NCBI GenBank assembly: GCA_022766785.1
Contig: JALEOL010000033.1
Coordinates: 1-40,939 of the forward strand
DNA: 40,939 nucleotides
Source of the DNA: Oscillospiraceae bacterium
GTDB lineage: Bacteria > Bacillota > Clostridia > Oscillospirales > Ruminococcaceae
Direction: 5' to 3'
The notes below the pieces were generated by a model. The model was not told the DNA's origin. It was given only the letters and a program-made list of their open reading frames with translations, and did no database searches. Below are positions 24,749-39,635 of this stretch, in pieces. How positions within the stretch are numbered: position 1 is the stretch's first letter; the number at the start of each line of letters is the position of its first letter. The position numbers were made by a program, and so were the translations under genes.

Positions 24749-25429
24749 TCATATGTATTCTGCGGTGACGGTCATTCCGAGTGCGGACAGCTTTCGCTGT
24801 AATTCCTCCGAGCAGCTTTCCGGGAGCGTTGCCACGGCGGAGATAATGACCTGCTTTTCTCCGGAGACAACTCCCCTGAACCAGTCCATATTCTTCCCGA
24901 ACTTTTTCAGCCAGTGGTCGCAGTCGGCGTGATTGCTTGCATAGCCGCGAAGGTGCGCTTCGTGGTGGCTGATGATGTTCTCGGGCTTTATGGTGGGGTA
25001 GTTTTTCATGAGCCGCTGACACAACTGTACCGCCAGCCCGAACGCCTGCTCAAAGTACTGCTTATCCGTCAGCCCGTCCTCGCAGATCTCAATCTGTATG
25101 TAAGCCGGGCTGTAATTGTAGCTGCCCTTTGAGCCGTTTCCGCAGCCCCAGCAGCAGATATTCCAGGGCAGCAGCTTCGCCGCCCTGATTTTGCCGTTCT
25201 TATCCAGACCTATCACGGCATGGGGGCATAACTGTATATCGGCACTGTCATAGTAATTCTTGTACGGGTTTTCGCCGCAGATGTCCGGAGCGTTGACGTA
25301 CCGCCGCAGGTTCGGGTTATTCGCGCCGGTGCTGTGGACGATAATCCCGGCAGGGCTGCCCTGTGGCATTTTCCGCGCCGCCTTGTAGCAGAGATTATTC
25401 CGGGCGTATGTCTCAAAGGTTATCGCCAT
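24749..25429 (-). CDS. N-acetylmuramoyl-L-alanine amidase (Amidase_2), phage-type endolysin
   Basis: A 226-residue amidase that cuts the bond between muramic acid and L-Ala. The zinc and catalytic residues appear in IIVHSTGANN (His), ISHHEAH (His pair) and HADCDHW, as in Amidase_2/PGRP folds. WGCGNGSKGSYNYSPAYIQIEICED is the usual central segment of prophage amidases. A C-terminal 40-residue tail (VIISAVATLPESCSEELQRKL) may be a wall- or spore-targeting add-on. The start at 25429 overlaps the holin gene by 17 bases. The whole makes a compact lysis cassette with no tail or packaging genes. Confidence 0.88.
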   Translation of the reverse strand: MAITFETYARNNLCYKAARKMPQGSPAGIIVHSTGANNPNLRRYVNAPDICGENPYKNYYDSADIQLCPHAVIGLDKNGKIRAAKLLPWNICCWGCGNGSKGSYNYSPAYIQIEICEDGLTDKQYFEQAFGLAVQLCQRLMKNYPTIKPENIISHHEAHLRGYASNHADCDHWLKKFGKNMDWFRGVVSGEKQVIISAVATLPESCSEELQRKLSALGMTVTAEYI

Positions 25430-25634
25430 TGCTGCCACCGTCCTTGTTTGAGCTGTCTGCAAGCCCCTCGCCTATGGTGTAGCCCACCACTGCCGCCGTT
25501 GCCATAATGCAGCCGCTTACGGTAGTCGCAACCTCGTCGCCGCCGCCGAACGCGAGTATCAGTCCCGACACCAGCGCCGCCACGGACACCCACCACTTAC
25601 GGCTCGTCAGTTTACGTTTCCAGTCAATTTTCAT
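25413..25634 (-). CDS. Small phage holin
   Basis: A 73-residue protein with two hydrophobic helices: WWVSVAALVSGLILAFG (about 12-30) and TTVSGCIMATAAVVGYTIG (about 36-55), and a basic N-terminus (KIDWKRKLTSRKW). This matches short Firmicute phage holins next to amidases. AGGAGG precedes the start at 25634. It overlaps both neighbours (11 and 17 bases), so the three genes are one translational unit. Confidence 0.82.
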   Translation of the reverse strand: MKIDWKRKLTSRKWWVSVAALVSGLILAFGGGDEVATTVSGCIMATAAVVGYTIGEGLADSSNKDGGSNGDNL

Positions 25635-25857
25635 GGTGCTTTTCCTCCTGTTCCAGATCCTCAATGCGGTGATTTATGACCTTTATCTGCTCCTCTATCA
25701 CCGGCATTCTCCGTGCGAAATTGTTGTGCTCTGCGACCCTCTGTTCAAGCTGCTTCAAGCGGTACGCCGTCAGCTTGCTGCTGACCAGTATACCGCCAAG
25801 CGAGCCGCCGAGCGTTCCCAAAAGCGATATCATCGCCACGATTATGTTGCTGTCCAT
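25624..25857 (-). CDS. Holin-associated membrane/coiled-coil protein (XhlA-like)
   Basis: A 77-residue protein with one membrane helix at the N-terminus (IIVAMISLLGTLGGSLGGILV) and a heptad-rich tail (LKQLEQRVAEHN to IKVINHRIEDLEQEEK), typical of small phage proteins next to holins. The sequence order differs from Bacillus XhlA, where the coil precedes the helix, so the homology is only functional. AGGAGG precedes the start. No clear promoter can be read in 25858-25947. Confidence 0.7.
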   Translation of the reverse strand: MDSNIIVAMISLLGTLGGSLGGILVSSKLTAYRLKQLEQRVAEHNNFARRMPVIEEQIKVINHRIEDLEQEEKHHEN

Positions 25858-25948
25858 ATTGACCTCCTGTCTTTTTTCCGGGGAGCGAACGTCCCTCCGT
25901 AATGCTATTCTAAGCAATACAACACTGCATTTTACTGCAAACAGCAAA

Positions 25949-25986: not shown

Positions 25987-26042
25987 TAGAAAAATCTCAC
26001 CCTATACAGAACCCCCCCGAAGAATAACTCCGGGGGTATGTA

Positions 26043-26810
26043 TTACTGCATTCTGTTGTTCTGGTTGGGGTTGTAGTTCTGGTTTGCGTTGGGGTTGTAG
26101 CCGGGGTTCGGGTTCATGTTGGGGTTGTAGCCGGCGTTCGGGTTTACATTGGGATTGTAGCCGGGATTGGGGTTCATGTTGGGATTATAACCGGGGTTCA
26201 TGTTGGGATTGTAGTTCTGGTTCATATTGGGGTTGTAGCCTGCGTTGGGATTATAGCCCTGATTCATATTGGGGTTGTAGCCTGCGTTGGGATTATAGCC
26301 CTGATTCATGTTGGGATTGTAGCCGTTCATGTTGGGATTGTATGCGTTGGCAGTGCGCGCCGCGTTCATGTTCTTTACAGCGTCAAAGGAAGCCTTGATA
26401 GCAGAAATGGTGAGGGTCGCTTCGCTGGGGGTAACTGTATGGATAAGGTAGCCCATGCTTAACATGATAAGCGAGATAGCAGCAAGTAATGCACTGGAGG
26501 TGAGGGTGAAGTTCATGATGAACGCCAGCAGAGCCGGAATAAGATTGATCAGTGAGGGGATATCAATGCGGTCAGAGGACAGCTTTGTGAATACCGCCTG
26601 AGAAATAGCGCATGCAAATGTAAAGATGACAGCAATTCTTGTGAAAACAATTGCGCCTAACACAGCAGATGCCGCAGAATAAAAACTCCTTGATAATGCA
26701 GACATTGCGCTTCCTCCCAGTACAAGCACTGCGATCATGGAGAGAAGTGCGCCGAAAGCCACTCCAAGACGCGACCAGAGCGCGATTGACGATGCGAGTT
26801 GTTTGTTCAT
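26043..26810 (-). CDS. Membrane protein with YNPN(M/A)N repeat tail
   Basis: A 255-residue protein. Residues 1-140 contain about four hydrophobic helices, with the motif [13 protein letters not shown] shared by two further paralogs in this cluster. From about 155 to 250 the protein consists of tandem repeats built on [22 protein letters not shown] and [10 protein letters not shown], rich in Tyr, Asn, Pro and Gly. It ends NNRMQ. The start at 26810 has AAAAGGAGA upstream. It has its own promoter (TTGACA 26897-26892, 17 bases, TAAAAT 26874-26869). Function unknown. Such tails could bind glycans or walls, or form condensates; nothing here tells which. Confidence 0.78.
26046..26345 (-). repeat. 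Coding tandem repeat (YNPN units)
   Basis: About 300 bases of imperfect tandem units of roughly 42 bases and shorter multiples (GGGTTGTAGCC cores) encoding Tyr-Asn-Pro-Asn repeats. Likely unstable in copy number. Confidence 0.85.
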
Positions 26811-26868
26811 GGAAAAAATCTCCTTTTGATTTGTCATTTTAATGCGACTAAATATTACCGCATGATTT

Positions 26869-26897
26869 ATTTTATCATATTATTTTGGGGTTGTCAA
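26869..26897 (-). promoter_or_regulatory. Promoter of the YNPN-tail gene
   Basis: Minus strand TTGACA (26897-26892), 17-base spacer, TAAAAT (26874-26869). Confidence 0.75.
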
Positions 26898-26907
26898 TGG
26901 TTCTTTG

Positions 26908-26940
26908 AAAAAAACCTCCGCAGAGCAAGCCCACGGAGGT
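26908..26940 (-). terminator. Terminator of the two-gene paralog operon
   Basis: ACCTCCG (26914-26920) pairs with CGGAGGT (26934-26940). The minus strand continues with a run of T (26913-26908). Confidence 0.78.
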
Positions 26941-26946
26941 AAGAAG

Positions 26947-27846
26947 TTACATTCTGTTGTTGTTCTGGTAGTAGCCGCCAGCCGGGTTCTGGGGGTTAGC
27001 GTTCTGGGGATATGCCTGGTTGGGGTTGAACTGCTGATTAGCGTTCTGGGGATATGCCGGGTTGGGGTTGTATGCCTGGTTTGCGCCCTGGGGGTATGCC
27101 TGGTTCGGGTTGTATGCCTGGTTTGCGCCCTGGGGGTATGCCTGGTTCGGGTTGTATGCCTGGTTTGCGTTCTGGGGATATGCCTGGTTCGGGTTGTATG
27201 CCTGGTTTGCGTTCTGGGGGTATGCCTGGTTGGGGTTGTACGCCCGGTTAGCATTCTGGGGGTAGCCCGTACTAGGCGCATAGGCGTTTGCATATGCGGT
27301 CTTGGGTGCGGCGGAAGCTCCGCCCTTAATGCGTGTGATGATAGAATCGGTGGGGAATACCGCGCGGATATTGAGTATCGCGATAAGCAGTATAAAGATC
27401 ATTGCTACCACGAGATTTGCGCCGACCTTTGCCATAGCACTGCTGCTGGAGCCGGACATGATCGCGCTCTGAGCCGCGGACATGATGTCCATGGAAAAGT
27501 TCATTATGAACGCCACCAGAGCGAGTGCAGCGTCGATCACAGAGCCGACGATGTTCTCCTTTGCAAGAAGATTGAATACCACCGCCGCAACAGCGCAAAT
27601 AAACAGGATTATCGCGCCTGCACGCATGAAGTCTATCGCGCCCATAGCAGTCTGCGCCTTGCCCAATATCTCGGAATTTCCGTAAGAGGAGCCTGAGAAG
27701 ATGTTGGAGAAAGAGTTTATGCCGAGATTGATAAATTCGGTGATCGTGCTGACGATCACGATAAAGCCGATCAATGAAAACAGCGCACCCAGCAGCTTGC
27801 CGCATCTGGAAGCCATGGCGAGTACGGAATATGTTTTGTTATTCAT
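26947..27846 (-). CDS. Paralogous membrane protein with AYPQNANQAYNPNQ repeat tail
   Basis: A 299-residue paralog of the flanking genes. Four membrane helices lie in residues 1-170, with the family motif VAFIMNFSMDIMSAA and a shared NIRAVFPTD near the end of the last helix. The tail (about 185-285) repeats a 14-residue unit, AYPQNANQAYNPNQ, at least five times. It ends NNNRM, like its neighbours. GGAGG lies 8 bases before the start. The gene follows its upstream paralog by 26 bases, so they form an operon. The 42-base DNA repeat at about 27000-27250 has near-identical copies, suggesting recent expansion. No function is known to me. Confidence 0.78.
   Translation of the reverse strand: MNNKTYSVLAMASRCGKLLGALFSLIGFIVIVSTITEFINLGINSFSNIFSGSSYGNSEILGKAQTAMGAIDFMRAGAIILFICAVAAVVFNLLAKENIVGSVIDAALALVAFIMNFSMDIMSAAQSAIMSGSSSSAMAKVGANLVVAMIFILLIAILNIRAVFPTDSIITRIKGGASAAPKTAYANAYAPSTGYPQNANRAYNPNQAYPQNANQAYNPNQAYPQNANQAYNPNQAYPQGANQAYNPNQAYPQGANQAYNPNPAYPQNANQQFNPNQAYPQNANPQNPAGGYYQNNNRM
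26995..27265 (-). repeat. 42-bp coding tandem repeat
   Basis: Near-identical units, each containing TATGCCTGGTTCGGGTTG and then TATGCCTGGTTTGCG, recur every 42 bases and encode the 14-residue AYPQ/AYNPN unit. Several neighbouring copies differ at only a few bases, as expected for recent slippage or unequal recombination. Confidence 0.85.
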
Positions 27847-27872
27847 GAATTATCCTCCTTATCAATGTGCTA

Positions 27873-28697
27873 TCACATTCTGCCGCCGTTTTGCGTGTTG
27901 TTATAGCCGTTGTTCTGATAGGAGGCGTTCGGCGCGGCATAGCCGTTATTCTGGATACCGGAGTTCGGAGCAGAATATCCGCTGTTCTGGTATCCGGCGT
28001 TGGGAGCCGCATAGCCGCCCTGGGTGCCTGCGCCGGGGGCTGCGTAGCCATTGTTCTGGTAGCCTGCGCCGGGGGCTGCATAGCCGTTGTTCTGGTAGCC
28101 TGAATTGGGGGCTGCGTAGCCGTTATTCTGGTATGCGCCTGTTCCGTAAGTGCTGCCGGTGTATACGGCTGCTTTCCTTCTGGTGAATATCGGGTCGCCG
28201 GGGAAAGCGGCACGCAGAACGACGCCTGCGCTGAGTATCAGGAATATCATCGCGGTGAAAAATCCGATGATCGCACCAGGAATATCCGAGCCGCTCACAT
28301 TGCTGAACTTGTTCATTGGATCGGCGATAATGAAGTTCATGATGAAGCCCACCAGCGCCACAAAAACGTCGATGAGCGATCCTGCGACGTTTTCCTTGGC
28401 CACGACATTGAATATCACAGCCATTATTGCGAAGAAGAACATCACATACGCACCAACGCACATGAAATTGATCGCGCCCAAAACGGTTTCACTTGCCTGC
28501 TGGGCGCTGCTGATAGCGGAGGAAGATGAGCCGTAGCCGTAGCCGTAGCTATAACTGCTGGAAGCTGAGAGGGTAGCATTTAATGCGTTCCCGACAGTGC
28601 TCACAATAACAATTAATCCAATTATTACAAAGAGCGCCCCGAGAAGTTTTCCGACCCTGGACACTATCGCCAGGACGGAAGAAGTGTTACTGTTCAT
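27873..28697 (-). CDS. Paralogous membrane protein with GYQNNGYAAP repeat tail
   Basis: A 274-residue protein, first gene of the paralog operon. About four membrane helices lie in residues 1-175, with family motifs VSRVGKLLGALF, VALVGFIMNF and VVLRAAFPGDPIF. An external Ser/Tyr/Gly loop (SSYSYGYGYGSSSS) lies between helices 1 and 2. The tail (about 185-270) repeats GYQNNGYAAPGA and variants, then ends NGGRM. The start at 28697 follows AAAGGAGA. The promoter is at 28745-28773. Function unknown; the conserved helices with three different tails suggest a scaffold whose tail evolves fast. Confidence 0.78.
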   Translation of the reverse strand: MNSNTSSVLAIVSRVGKLLGALFVIIGLIVIVSTVGNALNATLSASSSYSYGYGYGSSSSAISSAQQASETVLGAINFMCVGAYVMFFFAIMAVIFNVVAKENVAGSLIDVFVALVGFIMNFIIADPMNKFSNVSGSDIPGAIIGFFTAMIFLILSAGVVLRAAFPGDPIFTRRKAAVYTGSTYGTGAYQNNGYAAPNSGYQNNGYAAPGAGYQNNGYAAPGAGTQGGYAAPNAGYQNSGYSAPNSGIQNNGYAAPNASYQNNGYNNTQNGGRM

Positions 28698-28744: not shown

Positions 28745-28773
28745 ATTTTATCACTTATTTATCACATTGTCAA
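28745..28773 (-). promoter_or_regulatory. Promoter of the paralog operon
   Basis: Minus strand TTGACA (28773-28768), 17-base spacer, TAAAAT (28750-28745). Confidence 0.78.
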
Positions 28774-29242: not shown

Positions 29243-31636
29243 ATGAACTACGGACATTTCGACGAACTCAACAAGGAGTATGTCATCACCCGTCCGGACA
29301 CACCGTCCGCATGGGCAAACTACCTCGGCGACCCCGAGTACGGCGCTATCATCTCCAACAACGCCGGCGGCTACAGCTTCGTTAAGAGCGGCGCAAACGG
29401 ACGCGTTATCCGCTACCGCTTCAACGGCGTTGCAAACGACACCCCCGGCAGATACGTTTACCTGCGCGATCAGGAGACCGGCGAGTACTGGTCTGCTTCC
29501 TGGGCACCGGTATGCAAGCCCCTGGACGAGTACAAGAGCGAGTGCCGCCACGGTACTGCTTACACCGTTATCACTTCCGAGTACAAGGGCGTTAAGTCCG
29601 AGGTGACCTACTATGTTCCCCAGGGCGCTACATACGAGGTATGGGCGGCTAAGGTGACAAACACCTCCGACAAGCCGAAGAAGCTGGCTGTCACCGGTTA
29701 CTGCGAGTTCGTGAACGACCCGAACTACGAGCAGGATCAGGTGAACCTCCAGTATACCCTGTTCATCACACGCACCTATTTCAAGGGTAACTACATTCAC
29801 CAGATGCAGAACGAGATCTACAACCCCAACAGCGGACGTTTCCTCGGTCTTGCGGCTGCAAAGGTAGACGCTTACTGCGGCGACCGTGACGCATTCGTAG
29901 GCTCTTACCGCAGCTACGCTAACCCCAGGGGCATTGAGGAGGGTCTCAAGGGCGACCTCAACTACAACACCAACTCATGCGGCGCACTGGAGAGCGACAT
30001 CGTGCTCCAGCCCGGCGAGACCAAGGAGCTGACCTACGTTCTGGGCGGTCAGAAGACCGAGGCTGAGATCAACGAGATCATCAGCAGATACGAGAAGCCC
30101 GGCACCGTTGACGCAGAGCTTGCACAGCTCAAGGAGTTCTGGCACAGCAAGCTGAACAACCTCCAGGTACACACCCCCGACGCGAACTTCAACAACATGG
30201 TGAACACCTGGAACGCATACAACTGCTTCATCACCTTTATCTGGTCGAGAGCGGCTTCCTTCCAGTACTGCGGTCTGAGAAACGGCTTCGGCTACCGCGA
30301 TACCGTTCAGGATATCCAGGGCGTTATCCACCTTGCTCCCGAGATGGCAAAGAAGCAGATCGAGTTCATGCTCTCCGCACAGGTAACTAACGGCGCAGGT
30401 CTGCCGCTGGTCAAGTACGACCACAAGGCAGGTCAGGAGAACCACCCGGACGAGAACGACGAGAACTCCGTATACGCAAAGCAGACAGGTCACCCCAGCT
30501 ACCGTGCAGACGACGCTCTGTGGCTGTTCCCGACCGTTTACAAGTACATTTCCGAGAGCGGCGACAGCGCATTCCTCGATGAAGAAATATTCTATGCGAA
30601 CGACGGCGAAAAGGGCACTGTTTACGACCACCTGAAGCGCGCTATCGACTTCTCCATGAACCACCTGGGCAACCACGGCATGCCCGCAGGTCTGCACGCA
30701 GACTGGAACGACTGCCTGCGCCTTGGCAAGAAGGGCGAGTCCACCTTCGTTGCATTCCAGCTGGTTTATGCAGTGAAGATACTCCGCACCTACGCAGTTG
30801 AGAAGAACGACGCCGAGTATGTAAAGTACCTCGACGAGATCAAGGCTAAGCTGGACACTATCCTCTCCGCATGCTGGAACGAGGACAGATGGATCCGCGG
30901 CTACAAGGAGGACGGCACCGTTATCGGTCAGCGCACCGATCCCGAGGCTTCCATGTGGCTCAATCCCCAGAGCTGGTCTGTCATCTCCGGCTTCGCTACC
31001 AAAGAGCAGGGCGAGAAGGCTATGGACAGCGTTGAGCGCGAGCTGAACACACCTTACGGCGCAATGGTAATGTATCCGCCCTATGTAAAGCACGGCTTTG
31101 ACGGCGCGCTGATGCAGTGCTTCAACAAGTGCACCAAGGAGAACGCAGGTATCTTCTCTCAGCCGCAGGGCTGGCTCATTCTGGCAGAGTCCAAGCTGGG
31201 TCACGGCAACCGTGCATACAAGTACTGGACAGAGGCAGCTCCGGCTACCTACAACGACAACGCAGAGCACAGAGTGCTGGAGCCGTATGTATACGGTCAG
31301 TTCGTTGAGGGCAAGGACAGCCCGTTCGCAGGACGCGCGCACGTTCACTGGCTGACAGGTACCGCTTCCACCGTTATGGTAGGTACTACCGAGGGTATCC
31401 TGGGACTTAACCCCGAGACAAAGGGTATCGTTATCGACCCGTCTATCCCCTCCGAGTGGAAGGAATACACCATGGACAAGACCTTCCGCGGCAAGAGACT
31501 CCACGTTACCGTAAAGAACCCGAACGGCTCCGAGCACGGTGTGAAGTCCGTTACCGTAAACGGCGAGAAGATCGAGGGCAAGCTGATCCTTGACTCTGTA
31601 CTCAAGCCCGAGAACGACATAGTTATTGAGCTGTGA
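29243..31636 (+). CDS. Cellobiose phosphorylase (GH94)
   Basis: A 797-residue cytosolic enzyme that splits cellobiose with phosphate into glucose 1-phosphate and glucose, saving ATP during cellulose use. The N-terminal beta-sandwich (about 1-275) begins MNYGHFDELNKEYVITRPDTP, close to characterised cellobiose phosphorylases. The (alpha/alpha)6 catalytic domain follows, with the general acid in HADWNDCLRLG (D487). The sequence before it, RNGFGYRDTVQD, binds substrate. C-terminal beta strands end at 797. GGAGG lies upstream of the ATG. Codon use is strongly biased (frequent GTT, ATC, AAC, AAG), unlike neighbours, which suggests high expression. No cellodextrin transporter gene adjoins it. Confidence 0.96.
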   Translation: MNYGHFDELNKEYVITRPDTPSAWANYLGDPEYGAIISNNAGGYSFVKSGANGRVIRYRFNGVANDTPGRYVYLRDQETGEYWSASWAPVCKPLDEYKSECRHGTAYTVITSEYKGVKSEVTYYVPQGATYEVWAAKVTNTSDKPKKLAVTGYCEFVNDPNYEQDQVNLQYTLFITRTYFKGNYIHQMQNEIYNPNSGRFLGLAAAKVDAYCGDRDAFVGSYRSYANPRGIEEGLKGDLNYNTNSCGALESDIVLQPGETKELTYVLGGQKTEAEINEIISRYEKPGTVDAELAQLKEFWHSKLNNLQVHTPDANFNNMVNTWNAYNCFITFIWSRAASFQYCGLRNGFGYRDTVQDIQGVIHLAPEMAKKQIEFMLSAQVTNGAGLPLVKYDHKAGQENHPDENDENSVYAKQTGHPSYRADDALWLFPTVYKYISESGDSAFLDEEIFYANDGEKGTVYDHLKRAIDFSMNHLGNHGMPAGLHADWNDCLRLGKKGESTFVAFQLVYAVKILRTYAVEKNDAEYVKYLDEIKAKLDTILSACWNEDRWIRGYKEDGTVIGQRTDPEASMWLNPQSWSVISGFATKEQGEKAMDSVERELNTPYGAMVMYPPYVKHGFDGALMQCFNKCTKENAGIFSQPQGWLILAESKLGHGNRAYKYWTEAAPATYNDNAEHRVLEPYVYGQFVEGKDSPFAGRAHVHWLTGTASTVMVGTTEGILGLNPETKGIVIDPSIPSEWKEYTMDKTFRGKRLHVTVKNPNGSEHGVKSVTVNGEKIEGKLILDSVLKPENDIVIEL

Positions 31637-31691: not shown

Positions 31692-33431
31692 ATGATTTGT
31701 AAGCATTGCGGGAATAATGTTGATGACAACATGGCGTTCTGCGGTTTCTGTGGCGCAAAATTGGAGCGCCCGATTCAGGAAGCGCAGTATCAGCAGTCTG
31801 TTCAGCCACAGTATCAGCAGCCTGCTCAGCCGCAATACCAACAGCCGGCACAGCAGGCGGAGGTTCAGCACGGTGGAGTGGCAGTAAAGAGCAGGCGCAG
31901 CAAGAAGCCGCTCATCATTCTGCTGATCGCTCTGGCGGTGCTTGTGGCAGGCGGTGCGGTTGCAATGTTCCTGATATTCGGGAACAGCACAGATTCGTCC
32001 GGTTACACATCGGCAATTCTCACGAAAATGGGCGTTGTGTATAATGGCAAGTTGGTCGAGGACAGCGGCGGAGTTAATCAGTTTCTGGCTTCTTCTCTTT
32101 CGGGCGATACCTTTGCGGTAAAGGATGCGGACAAAAGATGCGTCTGCGTTCTGAAGAACGGAAAGCTGATCAGAACCAATGTAAATACGGAGAACGGTAT
32201 TGGTCTGGGCTTTTCGCTCGCAGCTTCCGGCAACGGTATTGCATACTACACCGCAGACCTTGGCGTGGAACTGATGGATACAAACACCGGAGAGATCACG
32301 GTCATTGAGGAAAGCGGTAATTACACCGGCGTCACTATCTCCCCCGACGGAAAGACCGTGGCATATTCGGACTCAAAAACGATATTCCTTTACACAAACG
32401 GAGAATCGAAAAAGCTTATGTCGGCAAATATGTTCCTCGGCGTGGTGGCTGTTGCAGACGAGGGTAAGTATGTATTTGCATATAATTTGGTCAATGACTT
32501 CACATTGTACTGTCTTGACAGCACGGGTGAGATCCTTTCTTCAACTTCCATGTGTATGTCACCGTTTGTAACCAATAAGGATAACACACAGGTCACATAC
32601 AGAATGAAGGAGGGTGATAAGGCGGTTTATATTTATGACGCAGTCAAGGACGAGACATATTCCTACCCTTACAGCGGAATGTTTACGAAAACCAGATTGC
32701 CGGTGGGTGAGTTCATATACGACACCGATTATAATTTGCTCAACAGCATGACCTCAAATGGTTCGATGTATCCCACCATGCATTTCAATATCGAAGATCT
32801 GACCCACTGCTTAAGCTTTGACGGCGGTCTTTATCAGCTTGATGGAGACGATTCAAAGGAAATAAGCCTGAACGGTCAGAGAGTCAGACATGTTGCCACT
32901 ATGGCAGACGGAGGTATCGTATATCTTACATGCAACGATTCTTTATCGGACACAACATATAGTCTGGTATTGGAAAAAGACGGAGAGACAGATGACGTCG
33001 GCGTTGTAGATGGCTTTGGCGTATCGCCGAGCGGGAAAACCATTTTCTACTTCACACAGGACGGCAGGCTGATGCAGTACAGAAACGGCGAAAGCCGGGA
33101 GATAGCGGAGAACGTATGTACGGAGAACTATTTCGTGGGCTTGGATCAGATCGGAGTTGGCATCCCCACCGTTCTTGGAGATGATGTTATCGTCTATCCC
33201 GGCAATGACAGCCAGTGGTATATCTACAAAAAAGGAAAGACCGAGCCGGTACCCGGAGAGATCCCCCAGTTTTACAATACTGCAAACGGTATATACATAA
33301 ACCCCACAGGATATAATATCAGGATCGGCAAGAACAGCTTGTATTTCTTCACCGATACATACCTTGTATATCAGAACGACAGCGATCTGTTCATCATCGA
33401 TCCCAACGGCAATACTTCCCCTCTTGAATAA
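31692..33431 (+). CDS. Zinc-ribbon membrane protein with external beta-propeller-like domain
   Basis: A 579-residue protein. An N-terminal zinc ribbon (MICKHCGNNVDDNMAFCGFCGAKLE has two CxxC knuckles, written here as KHCG and GFCG) is followed by a Gln-rich repeat (QYQQPAQPQYQQPAQ, about 33-58). A basic stretch and one membrane helix (KPLIILLIALAVLVAGGAVA, about 75-97) come next. The remaining 480 residues are exposed and contain repeated strand blocks with TolB/WD-like motifs such as SPDGKTVAYSDS and SPSGKTIFYFTQDG, which suggest a beta propeller. Function unknown. It follows cellobiose phosphorylase by 55 bases and may be co-expressed. GGAGG lies upstream of the start. Confidence 0.75.
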   Translation: MICKHCGNNVDDNMAFCGFCGAKLERPIQEAQYQQSVQPQYQQPAQPQYQQPAQQAEVQHGGVAVKSRRSKKPLIILLIALAVLVAGGAVAMFLIFGNSTDSSGYTSAILTKMGVVYNGKLVEDSGGVNQFLASSLSGDTFAVKDADKRCVCVLKNGKLIRTNVNTENGIGLGFSLAASGNGIAYYTADLGVELMDTNTGEITVIEESGNYTGVTISPDGKTVAYSDSKTIFLYTNGESKKLMSANMFLGVVAVADEGKYVFAYNLVNDFTLYCLDSTGEILSSTSMCMSPFVTNKDNTQVTYRMKEGDKAVYIYDAVKDETYSYPYSGMFTKTRLPVGEFIYDTDYNLLNSMTSNGSMYPTMHFNIEDLTHCLSFDGGLYQLDGDDSKEISLNGQRVRHVATMADGGIVYLTCNDSLSDTTYSLVLEKDGETDDVGVVDGFGVSPSGKTIFYFTQDGRLMQYRNGESREIAENVCTENYFVGLDQIGVGIPTVLGDDVIVYPGNDSQWYIYKKGKTEPVPGEIPQFYNTANGIYINPTGYNIRIGKNSLYFFTDTYLVYQNDSDLFIIDPNGNTSPLE

Positions 33432-36165: not shown

Positions 36166-37239
36166 TTAGTTGGAGGGATTCACGTCGATAGAATCGTAGA
36201 GATCGATCAAATGAGATGAGAAATCATAAGCGATCTCAACATAGCTGCCGGCGTCTTCTATAAAACTCTTGATGCTTGAATATGTGCTGTCAGGATACTC
36301 CACCGGGAGAGCTTTGGCCATTCGTGTAAGGTAATCCTTGGCTGTGCTGAGTTCCGGATAATCTCCGCATTTGTTTGCGGCTTCAATGAATTTATCCTTC
36401 GCCAGATCAAAGTAGGACACAGCGAAAATACAGTCGTAGTAGTAATCCCAGATACTGTCGTTGTCCTGGCTGAATGTGTATTCGCAGCCTTGGTCTGCGT
36501 AATCAGAACCTTTTAAAAACAGGTCTGAGATAGCATTAAGCGTGCCTTCCAGCTCTTTGATAGTTTCACCGCATCTGCTGCACTTTCCGAGACGGGTGGA
36601 GTGACCCAGCGGTTCGCCGTCTGTTTTGCCGCAGACCGTACATGTCCTGCCTGTGGTGCAGGTGGCTTCCGTCCACTGATGTCCCACCGGTTCGCCGCGT
36701 TCTTTTCCGCAGATCACGCACAGCTCCGGATTTTCGCAGTCCGCCGCCTGGAAATGGTGCTGGATACACAGGTGGGTTACATTATAGATAAATCTCACAC
36801 CGCCGTATCGGAACAGTATTCCCGTCTGCAATGTGATGAAGAACGCCGCTATGCCCAGCACCAGCACACCCAGAACAATGAACAGCGCGATAGGCTTGCG
36901 GCGCTTTTTTACAGGCTTCAGAACCGCTGAGCCGTCCGGCTGCCACGGCGCTGCCCCGGGTATTTCTGCGCCTGTGGGCGAGTTCCACTGAGCGCCCGGG
37001 AACGCAGTGCTGTCCGCAGGCGCGCCTGTGGGCTGATATCCGGGGAAAGGCGGCGGTGTGACGTCCATCGGGTCAGTGGGAGCGCTCTCTGTTACTGTTC
37101 CCGGAGTGACTTCGGTCTGAGCGGCTGGGTTTGGTACAGCGTTTGCCGGCGGCTGCTGAGGGATATTCAGCTTGCGTCCGCAGGCTGTGCAGAATTCGCA
37201 GTCGTCGAGTATGGTTTTACCACAATACGGACAGAACAT
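36166..37239 (-). CDS. Zinc-ribbon membrane protein with external Cys-knuckle repeats
   Basis: A 357-residue protein. An N-terminal zinc ribbon (FCPYCGK and FCTACGRK) precedes a Pro-rich linker (about 27-110, with PPPFPGYQP). A KKRRK basic block and one helix (IALFIVLGVLVLGIAAFFIT, about 118-138) follow. Outside there is the motif LCIQHHF, then three CxxC knuckles (CVICGK, CTVCGK, CSRCGE) spaced by GEP(V/L)GH, and a helical C-terminal domain (about 235-357). These exported Cys-knuckles with EATCTT spacers repeat twice. Function unknown; the same plan occurs in the gene at 38175-39542. It has its own promoter. Confidence 0.78.
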   Translation of the reverse strand: MFCPYCGKTILDDCEFCTACGRKLNIPQQPPANAVPNPAAQTEVTPGTVTESAPTDPMDVTPPPFPGYQPTGAPADSTAFPGAQWNSPTGAEIPGAAPWQPDGSAVLKPVKKRRKPIALFIVLGVLVLGIAAFFITLQTGILFRYGGVRFIYNVTHLCIQHHFQAADCENPELCVICGKERGEPVGHQWTEATCTTGRTCTVCGKTDGEPLGHSTRLGKCSRCGETIKELEGTLNAISDLFLKGSDYADQGCEYTFSQDNDSIWDYYYDCIFAVSYFDLAKDKFIEAANKCGDYPELSTAKDYLTRMAKALPVEYPDSTYSSIKSFIEDAGSYVEIAYDFSSHLIDLYDSIDVNPSN

Positions 37240-37433: not shown

Positions 37434-38156
37434 TCAGGCAGCCTGCGAGTCCTCGGAAGTACTCTCTGTTATGCTGCCGCATATGACGCAGCGCTGTCCG
37501 CCGTCGGTCTGCGGTTCATAGTGGTGCTGAATGCACACGCCGGTCAGCTCGTGGAGCTTTTTGATAATCCCGGCTTCATACAGCGTGCCGGTGAAATACA
37601 TCACAGCTCCTGCCGCGACCGCAACTCCGAAAAGCGCGGCGATGATACGCAGCACGATTTTGAGCGGCGTGAAATTTATCACCCTGATCGGCTTTACGGT
37701 TGTCATGGCTGGATCGTCAGCGTTCCCCAGAGTCGGCTCTGACTGCTGTTTCCTGCCGGTGACGAGCGCGTCGTCTATGCCCGGGGAAAGAGCAGCGCGC
37801 TTGCTGTTCTGCACGCCGTAGATCGAATTGTAATACTGCTGGATAGTATCCGCGCCGACCTCCGGCATGCTGTCCTCCTCAAATTTCATGGGAGGGGCGC
37901 TTGCCGTTTTTTTAGGCTCCTGCGGCGCTGTCCGGCGTGGGATAGCCTTGTCGCTGGGAAGCACAGGCGCAGGCTTCTTGACAGCGCTCTGTGCGGTGTC
38001 GGGGATATTATCGCCGGCTGCTGCCCCGGGCTTTTTGTCAGCCTTTGGAACCGCCGCGGTTTTTGCCGTGTTCTGCTTTTGAACCACGGGCGTGCCGCAG
38101 ATATGGCAGAACATAGAGTCGTCGTTGAGCGTTGCACCGCATTTTTTGCATATCAT
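37434..38156 (-). CDS. Zinc-ribbon membrane protein, short paralog
   Basis: A 240-residue protein. The zinc ribbon (MICKKCGA and FCHICGTP) leads to a long Pro/Ala/Lys-rich linker (about 27-165), a helix (LRIIAALFGVAVAAGAVMYF, about 170-190) and a short outer tail with TGVCIQHHYEP, then a single CVICGS knuckle. It keeps the C-x-QHH motif of the two longer relatives but has one external knuckle and no helical C-terminal domain. It lies 18 bases after the longer gene in an operon. Function unknown. Confidence 0.76.
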   Translation of the reverse strand: MICKKCGATLNDDSMFCHICGTPVVQKQNTAKTAAVPKADKKPGAAAGDNIPDTAQSAVKKPAPVLPSDKAIPRRTAPQEPKKTASAPPMKFEEDSMPEVGADTIQQYYNSIYGVQNSKRAALSPGIDDALVTGRKQQSEPTLGNADDPAMTTVKPIRVINFTPLKIVLRIIAALFGVAVAAGAVMYFTGTLYEAGIIKKLHELTGVCIQHHYEPQTDGGQRCVICGSITESTSEDSQAA

Positions 38157-38174
38157 GATATTACCTCTCTATAA

Positions 38175-39542
38175 TTACAGAAGGTCAAGGATATCAAGTG
38201 CGCATCTTGCGTAATCCTGGGTCGCGTAGGTGAAGTCAATAAGGTCGTCGATAAAGTTTGAAAGGCTGTTTGTGGAATAGTTCGGCTCGGTGGTGGGGAG
38301 ATATTTCACCATGTTGTTTATGTATTTCTTCAGATCGGCGAATTCGCTGTAGTCGCCGCATTTTATTGCCGCCTCGCGGTATTTGCTGGAGGCGAGCACA
38401 AAGTAGTTCGTGGCGTTCACGCAGGCAACATAATATGCAGATGAGCTTGAAGCGGAGGCGTTCGCGATGAGCTCGTACCCGATCGAATAGTAGCTGTCGC
38501 CGTCGTTGCACAGACCGAGTATCTGATAGAACGTGCTTTCAAGCTCGGTAACTTTCTCGCCGCACCTGCCGCACTTCCCGAGACGGGTGGTGTGCCCCAG
38601 GGGAGAGCCGTCCTTTGCGCCGCATACCGTGCATTCGCGCGCGGAGGTGCAGGTGGCTTCCTGCCAGCTGTGGGGGAGAGGATCGCCCTCGGTCTTTCCG
38701 CAGACGGAGCAGGTTTGGGGCGAGGTGCAGGTAGCTTCTGCCCACTCGTGCCCCAGAGGTTCGCCCTGTTCATTTCCGCATATCTCGCAGCGTTCGGGGT
38801 TCTCGCAGTCCGCGTCGATATAGTGGTGCTGAACGCAGAGGTGGGTGATATCGTAGATAGTCTTAACTCCGCCGGAACGGTACAGGAAACCGTTGTTCAG
38901 CGTGATGATGAACGCAGCGGCGCCGCCCAGAAGAATAACCCCCAGTGCCATAAGCACGATTATCAGAGGAGTTTTTTTCTTCTTCAGTGGCTTGACTGCC
39001 GCGATCTCCGGCTGGGGCTGTCCGAATGACGGAGGTATCGGGGTGAAGCCGCCGGGATCATTGCCGTAAGATCCGCCGGGAGCATTTGCCATGAACCCAC
39101 CCCGGTCATTTGCAGAGGGATCTTCGGGAATTCCATTGGCGCTGTTTGACGGGAAATCTCCGGGTACACCAAAAGGAGCGTTCACGTTACCGCCTGCTGT
39201 GTTGTTCCCGGGGAACGGCGGCGGAGTAATTCCCATAAGCTCCGGCGCAGACTGTGTGCTTCCGGTGGGCTGGGGGATATCATTCACGGGGTGCGGCACG
39301 CTGATGTTCGTCCGGCTGCCGGGAAGCTCCTCGTTCGGGACGGGAACGGAAACCGGAGCAGGTTCAGTGCTGCCGCCAACGGACGGCATTTCAGAACCGG
39401 CGCCAGTTGCGACCGGCATTCCACCCTGTGCGGCGGTGACTTCCCTGATCTCCTCGGGTTTGGGGGCATTCAGCTTTCTTCCGCAGGTGGAGCAGAATTC
39501 GGAGCCGTCGTTGAGCTGGCTTCCGCAGTAAGGACAGAACAT
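38175..39542 (-). CDS. Zinc-ribbon membrane protein with four external Cys-knuckles
   Basis: A 455-residue protein that looks like an enlarged version of the gene at 36166. The zinc ribbon (FCPYCGSQ and FCSTCGRK) leads to a Pro/Gly/Asn-rich linker (about 30-190), KPLKKKK, and a helix (TPLIIVLMALGVILLGGAAA, about 196-217). Outside are LCVQHHY, then CEICGN, CSVCGK, CTVCGA and CGRCGE, with EATCTS spacers, and a helical C-terminal domain (about 350-455). The start at 39542 follows GGGAGG; the ORF extends 31 codons upstream without a ribosome site. It is first in an operon with the short paralog. The external Cys pairs may bind zinc or form disulfides. Confidence 0.78.
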   Translation of the reverse strand: MFCPYCGSQLNDGSEFCSTCGRKLNAPKPEEIREVTAAQGGMPVATGAGSEMPSVGGSTEPAPVSVPVPNEELPGSRTNISVPHPVNDIPQPTGSTQSAPELMGITPPPFPGNNTAGGNVNAPFGVPGDFPSNSANGIPEDPSANDRGGFMANAPGGSYGNDPGGFTPIPPSFGQPQPEIAAVKPLKKKKTPLIIVLMALGVILLGGAAAFIITLNNGFLYRSGGVKTIYDITHLCVQHHYIDADCENPERCEICGNEQGEPLGHEWAEATCTSPQTCSVCGKTEGDPLPHSWQEATCTSARECTVCGAKDGSPLGHTTRLGKCGRCGEKVTELESTFYQILGLCNDGDSYYSIGYELIANASASSSSAYYVACVNATNYFVLASSKYREAAIKCGDYSEFADLKKYINNMVKYLPTTEPNYSTNSLSNFIDDLIDFTYATQDYARCALDILDLL

Positions 39543-39606
39543 ATGTAACCTCCCGTGCGATTTTGGCACGCATTTAAATAATATATATGAAAATAGCTTT
39601 GCGCTT

Positions 39607-39635
39607 ATTATATCATAAAATTTGTTACTTTTCAA
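39607..39635 (-). promoter_or_regulatory. Promoter of the two-gene zinc-ribbon operon
   Basis: Minus strand TTGAAA (39635-39630), 17-base spacer, TATAAT (39612-39607). Confidence 0.72.

Follow-up and report, generated by a model that had tools for sequence, protein, structure and literature searches.

Synaptophysin, a protein of animal synaptic vesicles, has a four-transmembrane (TM) body, two cytoplasmic termini and a repetitive C-terminal tail rich in Tyr, Gly, Pro and Gln. It may serve as the nearest working analogy for the proteins encoded by three genes, here called A, B and C, of the window studied, i.e. the whole stretch of 40,939 nucleotides at positions 1 to 40,939 of contig JALEOL010000033.1 of an Oscillospiraceae gut bacterium (assembly GCA_022766785.1). 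The likeness lies in the four-TM plan and the repetitive, presumably cytoplasmic C-terminal tail; it is an analogy only, with no sequence relation shown. As described in one study (PMC9884207), the cytoplasmic tail of synaptophysin participates in condensates of vesicles with synapsin and acts at least partly through negative charge, whereas the tails of A, B and C are nearly neutral (net charge +1 to +3) and thus lack the acidic character of their animal counterpart.

Among bacterial proteins, the PspC and LiaI-LiaF-TM components of the phage-shock and Lia stress systems are small multi-TM proteins, some PspC proteins being fused to zinc ribbons (PMC11237479). A, B and C are small multi-TM proteins as well; none of them matched LiaI-LiaF-TM or PspC above cut-off in Pfam and NCBIfam, where the presence of the redefined domain was not checked. 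Bacterial prion-like proteins rich in Asn and Gln, such as a Clostridium Rho domain (PMC4703818, PMC4606120 and PMC6400439), have an N/Q/Y/G-rich, charge-poor and presumably disordered segment in common with the A/B/C tails. This likeness is known from composition counts only, and A, B and C differ in that ordered tandem repeats are mounted on a four-TM anchor. For the MARVEL domain, no Pfam match to the three proteins was listed up to E 1, a range in which the HMMER filters drop weak matches. As the initial annotation had anticipated, no description of such a family was found in the literature searched, whose coverage excludes most subscription papers. The core had no match over threshold in Pfam, NCBIfam, PHROGs and PADLOC. 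Sub-threshold Pfam matches included CD20-like and DUF1634 for A, and a cytadhesin family, taken up below, for the tail of C; among the families listed for A, CD20-like scored best (E 0.015; 15.8 bits, with a cut-off at 27.9).

The safest statement about A, B and C is that they are four-TM proteins encoded in tandem, with predicted cytoplasmic, near-neutral repeat tails of evenly spaced aromatic residues, related to zinc-ribbon four-TM proteins and devoid of the ribbon itself. The reading that we favor, with a probability of about 45%, goes further: the three proteins would be membrane anchors displaying multivalent Tyr/Asn stickers, by which they would associate with one another or collect a partner beneath the membrane.

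The initial annotation had described three tandem paralogous membrane proteins with about four helices, a shared FIMNF motif and diverging tandem-repeat tails, and this description is confirmed, with two corrections concerning the start of C and the tail endings. Three complete open reading frames (ORFs) are arranged head to tail on the minus strand inside positions 28697-26043, four helices per product are apparent from a hydropathy scan (C scanned without its first Met), and an alignment of the cores yields 47% (B) and 33% (C) identity to A, with F-I-M-N-F invariant. Hence, A, B and C are one family. The longest ORF of gene C begins at 26837; because a good Shine-Dalgarno sequence precedes the ATG at 26810, the latter is most likely the true start. 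The GC content of the cores (0.49-0.50, versus 0.55 with a standard deviation of 0.04 in 224 sampled ORFs) deviates mildly, a difference that favors neither local duplication nor transfer.

Lysine and arginine residues of the predicted segments are distributed between inside and outside in ratios of 8:1 (A), 9:3 (B) and 8:1 (C). An N-terminal zinc ribbon in a membrane protein fits a cytoplasmic N-terminus, and five of the homologues considered below match the PF13240 zinc ribbon ahead of helix 1. On account of the K/R distribution and of these ribbons, both termini, and with them the tails, are probably cytoplasmic (N-in/C-in). A surface layer or glycan binding, which the initial annotation had entertained, would place the tails outside the cell, where they might contact glycans or the cell wall. 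Such a location would suit the match of C, and of C only, to the Mycoplasma cytadhesin P30/P32 family (PF07271; E 4.7e-5), as it would the enrichment of bacterial prion-like proteins in envelope terms found in a survey (PMC4606120); however, the former remains below threshold (23.6 bits against a cut-off of 40) and spans residues 154-260, which are the repeat tail, and both the residue ratios and the ribbons point inward. We therefore rejected extracellular tails as the most likely reading and consider them highly improbable. AlphaFold predicts a four-helix core for A (pLDDT 67.7, pTM 0.54; eight-row alignment) and no secondary structure for the tail of B (pLDDT about 30-37), which is weak evidence with an alignment of three rows.

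The tails, about 95-122 residues in length, are built from three different tandem units rich in Asn, Tyr, Pro, Gln, Gly and Ala: GYQNNGYAAP[GN][AS]-type units in A, AYPQNANQAYNPNQ units in B, and (G)YNPNMN(Q/P) units in C. The repeat units that the initial annotation had named are thereby verified. Tandem Repeats Finder (TRF) detects the corresponding DNA arrays in all three genes, with scores of 167 and 119 for the two arrays of A. It should be noted that the source assembly is a draft fragmented into 112 contigs, with a completeness of 85.75%, in which repeat copy numbers may be mis-assembled. The common R-M ending proposed initially is present in A (NGGRM) and B (NNNRM), while C ends with NNRMQ. 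Of the tail residues, 26 of 98 in A, 49 of 122 in B and 47 of 102 in C are Asn or Gln, and each tail holds only one to three charged residues. When 354 ORFs were ranked by their best 60-residue window of N/Q/P/G/Y/A/S/T, B, A and C took ranks 1, 2 (tied at 1.0) and 4; the 414,749 bases sampled comprised the window and 20 stretches from contigs with zinc-ribbon matches and were not a random choice. Even by the standards of this genome, the tails are extreme in composition, more so than chance would explain. Furthermore, Tyr and Phe, mostly 5-10 residues apart, are spaced more evenly in every tail than in all 2000 shuffles, an evenness that is partly a consequence of the tandem repeats themselves. 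With the B tail as query, B and C were matched, together with one weak match (E 7.3e-4) in genome G016; the latter (G016:C26:26578-26850, 27% identity) lies in an open frame of 162 amino acids.

Neighboring repeat copies were compared for nonsynonymous and synonymous change (pN/pS), the units being cut at TRF coordinates, since a choice of units by amino-acid motif biases the ratio downward. The values were 0.37 for B (Fisher p 0.0007), 0.21 for one array of A (p 0.009), and 0.19 (p 0.008) and 0.29 (p 0.002) for the arrays of C. Four of the five arrays thus have a low pN/pS, and therefore the unit sequence, beyond its composition, appears to be kept, which, the counts being small and the copies not independent, suggests rather than proves selection on the unit. 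The earlier proposal that composition matters more than sequence is only half supported: the paralogues have different units, but within these four arrays the changes between adjacent copies are mainly silent. The same data bear on the notion that the tails are repeat-slippage products of little function that are tolerated on functional four-TM proteins. Tandem arrays with high copy identity, the existence of short tail-less relatives (in G005, G023, G064 and G027, all of them weak matches) and the remaining array of A would agree with slippage; on the other hand, all three tails are in frame and charge-poor, an N/G-rich RM or RMQ end is kept throughout, and the reduction of pN/pS in the four arrays is significant. 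We regard slippage as a serious rival, yet an unlikely one.

In the favored sticker model, the four helices would anchor each protein in the inner membrane so that its two termini face the cytoplasm, and the almost uncharged, presumably disordered C-terminal tail would present its aromatic residues in an Asn/Gln/Pro/Gly context. Such a tail could act as a multivalent chain of low-affinity stickers, either for self-association or for the capture of a partner at the inner membrane face, so that A, B and C would work as membrane-tethered scaffolds. A and B would probably be co-produced, and C would be made from its own promoter. Tail disorder, self-association, the scaffold role and any partner are what we infer here from the features described above, and phase separation by the tails is possible. 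A more far-reaching version, in which tandem anchors with a different repeat "grammar" build separate membrane condensates or clusters, convergent to synaptophysin-type vesicle proteins, and in which the paralogues sort or mix in defined ways, is speculative and quite unlikely. Several observations weigh against the sticker model: a fold search returned only generic helical bundles; among the 43 genomes of the genus, A, B and C themselves were found in no other than their own, and their relatives do without them; we found no interaction partner and no conserved neighborhood for them; and the second array of A has a pN/pS of 0.70 (p 0.23, not significant), the repeat copies being few, non-independent and liable to homogenization by slippage and conversion. 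A/B/C combine a single core with three tails in what appear to be two transcription units, and both tail-less and zinc-ribbon relatives exist for comparison; they are a compact natural set in which one can ask whether such tails do more than provide spacing, and whether bacteria organize the inner face of their membrane with sticker chains.

Judging from profile comparisons, the A/B/C core is distantly related to proteins composed of a zinc ribbon, a linker and four TM helices in 6 of the 43 genus genomes, a small family of which A, B and C look like an offshoot. A profile of the three cores matched eight of these genomes at E <= 0.1, and the distant matches inspected include proteins with a zinc ribbon, a Pro/Gln-rich linker and four TM helices as well as short, tail-less multi-helix proteins. 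Alignment of the A/B/C profile with that of the zinc-ribbon group by hhalign gave a probability of 97.4 and an E-value of 1.2e-11 over 131 columns, a comparison that is not independent, as the zinc-ribbon rows had been picked as matches of the A/B/C profile. A combined profile matched 11 of the 43 genomes at E <= 1e-3, seven strongly (the source genome, G011, G025, G027, G063, G064 and G066) and the rest weakly, with two weak matches in G032; its recovery is true by construction for its own rows, but G027 and G066 were outside it and still found. Profile searches of genome contigs with the zinc-ribbon group returned five loci (L118-L122), whose proteins are those of G063, G066, G011, G025 and G064 and add no further members, and the A/B/C profile gave no match there. 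A tree of 11 cores unites A, B and C (87/87, not starred) and separates them from the zinc-ribbon proteins (95/95); the branch of C is long, and the program cautions that long branches are joined.

Both groups share the related four-TM core and a low-complexity, presumably cytoplasmic segment, but the zinc-ribbon protein is encoded by a single gene, whereas A, B and C are tandem copies that start directly with the core, have no zinc-ribbon match in Pfam, and carry the low-complexity part at the C-terminus. In the six zinc-ribbon homologues this part lies between ribbon and core; in G025, G063 and G066 it clearly consists of repeats, whereas the linker of G064 is short and non-repeated. Absence of the tails from all homologues, which according to the initial annotation would have spoken against its interpretation, is thus partly borne out: the weaker relatives are tail-less, and the G025 protein additionally has a short Pro/Tyr-rich C-terminal extension. 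At 4 of 30 loci the zinc-ribbon gene has a YkgJ-like gene as its immediate neighbor, and at a fifth (G064) one gene separates the two; at the corresponding place the source genome has an apparent helix-turn-helix gene instead (both gene names were assigned by eye, not by family search).

This relationship also makes it conceivable that the tails are passive flexible spacers: the ribbon would have been lost from a zinc-ribbon/linker/four-TM ancestor, and linker-like C-terminal repeats without any binding role would have remained or arisen. The architecture of the distant homologues fits this explanation, as does the recurrence in the source genome of zinc-ribbon membrane proteins with repetitive linkers (including locus L089). 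However, the low-complexity part of A, B and C sits at the opposite end of the core, so that ribbon loss alone is insufficient, and the low pN/pS in most arrays exceeds what a pure spacer needs. Spacers are likewise a serious rival, and although we doubt this explanation, it is the one that we would consider next after the sticker model.

To our knowledge, no role has been assigned to zinc-ribbon membrane proteins with repetitive linkers. The source genome has 44 matches to PF13240 at E <= 1, spread over many contigs (L088-L117); 23 of the 30 given as loci are over the cut-off, and many of the ribbons belong to membrane proteins whose linkers are repetitive. At L089, the order is TM helices, repeats and finally the ribbon. 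In the window itself, three tandem zinc-ribbon single-TM proteins (Table 1) have low-complexity linkers and Cys motifs after the TM helix, ENPE[RL]C[EV]ICG in two of them and QRCVICG in the third.

A profile search with the core, as proposed initially, found relatives within the genus only. The query A recovered itself and B in the source genome and a weak match, of the zinc-ribbon type, in one further genome of 61 (G025). In even draws from the order (394 genomes, E <= 1e-5), the family (396 genomes, E <= 1e-4) and the class (391 genomes, E <= 1e-4), the source genome alone matched the core; at most nine candidates were scored per genome, and the listed rows of the order and family draws include three and seven genomes of the genus, respectively, the source genome among them.

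Expression signals are listed in Table 1 together with the other features. RBS-like sequences precede the ATG of A (aaaaggaga) and gene B (aaggagga), which starts about 26 nucleotides after A. Taken with the promoter-like and terminator-like sites, they suggest a putative A-B unit, a separate C unit and, downstream, a separate lysis cassette. The promoter scan of the region counted 11 sites, versus a mean of 5.1 in shuffles, all of them consensus matches only.

Table 1. Position of genes, repeat arrays, putative expression signals and neighboring genes in the window
Feature	Position	Strand	Description
Gene A	27873..28697	minus	complete ORF, 274 aa; four-TM core ~1-176 and 98-aa tail
Gene B	26947..27846	minus	complete ORF, 299 aa; four-TM core ~1-177 and 122-aa tail
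Gene C	26043..26810	minus	complete, 255 aa from RBS-preceded ATG; four-TM core and ~100-aa tail
A tail tandem array	28026..28133	minus	period 36 bp (TRF)
A tail second tandem array	27903-28017	minus	TRF
B tail tandem array	26994..27264	minus	period 42 bp, 6.5 copies, score 393 (TRF)
C tail tandem arrays	26076..26342	minus	multiple overlapping TRF rows with periods of 18-60 bp; scores including 204 and 178
Promoter-like site upstream of A	28745..28773	minus	TTGACA-17-TAAAAT, 11/12, TG before -10
Promoter-like site upstream of C	26869..26897	minus	TTGACA-17-TAAAAT, 11/12
Terminator-like hairpin after B	26914..26940	minus	11 pairs, then TTTTTT
Terminator-like hairpin after C	26014..26036	minus	9 pairs, T-rich tail only
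Second terminator-like hairpin after C	25964-25952	minus	then TTTTTT, before lysis cassette
Phage-type lysis cassette	24749-25917	minus	directly downstream of C
GH94 phosphorylase	29243-31636
Zinc-ribbon protein adjoining GH94 gene	31692-33431		zinc ribbon, QYQQPAQP repeats, TM and PD40-type repeat
Zinc-ribbon single-TM proteins	36166-37239, 37434-38156, 38175-39635	minus	three in tandem

The lysis cassette has the same direction as C and comprises an XhlA-like gene (phrog_1863, E 6.8e-14), a holin gene (phrog_297, E 1.2e-5) and an endolysin gene (phrog_15001, E 3e-40); no phage structural gene was recognized beside it. Relatives of its amidase occur in 13 of the 43 genus genomes, the source genome included, and at three loci in viral contigs; by eye, the neighbors of the related cassettes are non-phage genes in some cases and phage-like genes in others. 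A, B and C could accordingly be accessory, moron-like genes of a prophage remnant. The position of the cassette, the autonomous promoter- and terminator-like sites beside it, and a weak match of B to the holin family phrog_9752 (E 0.0043, residues 71-134; no such match for A and C) would speak for this origin. Yet none of the 24 related-amidase loci (21 from the genus and three viral, with about 1.5-6 kb of flank where the contig allowed) carries A/B/C, the A core has no match in 50,697 phage records, the B core none in 72,556 plasmid records, and A, B and C none in the viral contigs; moreover, the Pfam-scanned neighbors, the cassette excepted, are not phage genes. We disfavor this explanation as very unlikely. 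The amidase loci without A/B/C, the terminator-like sites after C and the lack of matches in these collections also led us to reject A, B and C as part of the lysis cassette.

A conserved operon with the GH94 phosphorylase gene, which has matches in 40 of the 43 genus genomes, was rejected as well, the upstream arrangement of the window being present in none of the 20 GH94 regions read. Upstream of these genes, relatives were sought by blastp (1e-3) for A, B, C, the lysis genes and the EAL-GGDEF gene, and none was found, four of the regions being short (L055 about 0.9 kb, L051 3.2 kb, L047 4.5 kb, L058 5.8 kb). Genomes G015, G004 and G012, close relatives whose full-length GH94 proteins are 94-95% identical, were not matched by the A/B/C profile at E <= 0.1. 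About seven of the 20 GH94 regions (L056, L057, L060-L064) seem, by the sizes of their ORFs, to share another arrangement.

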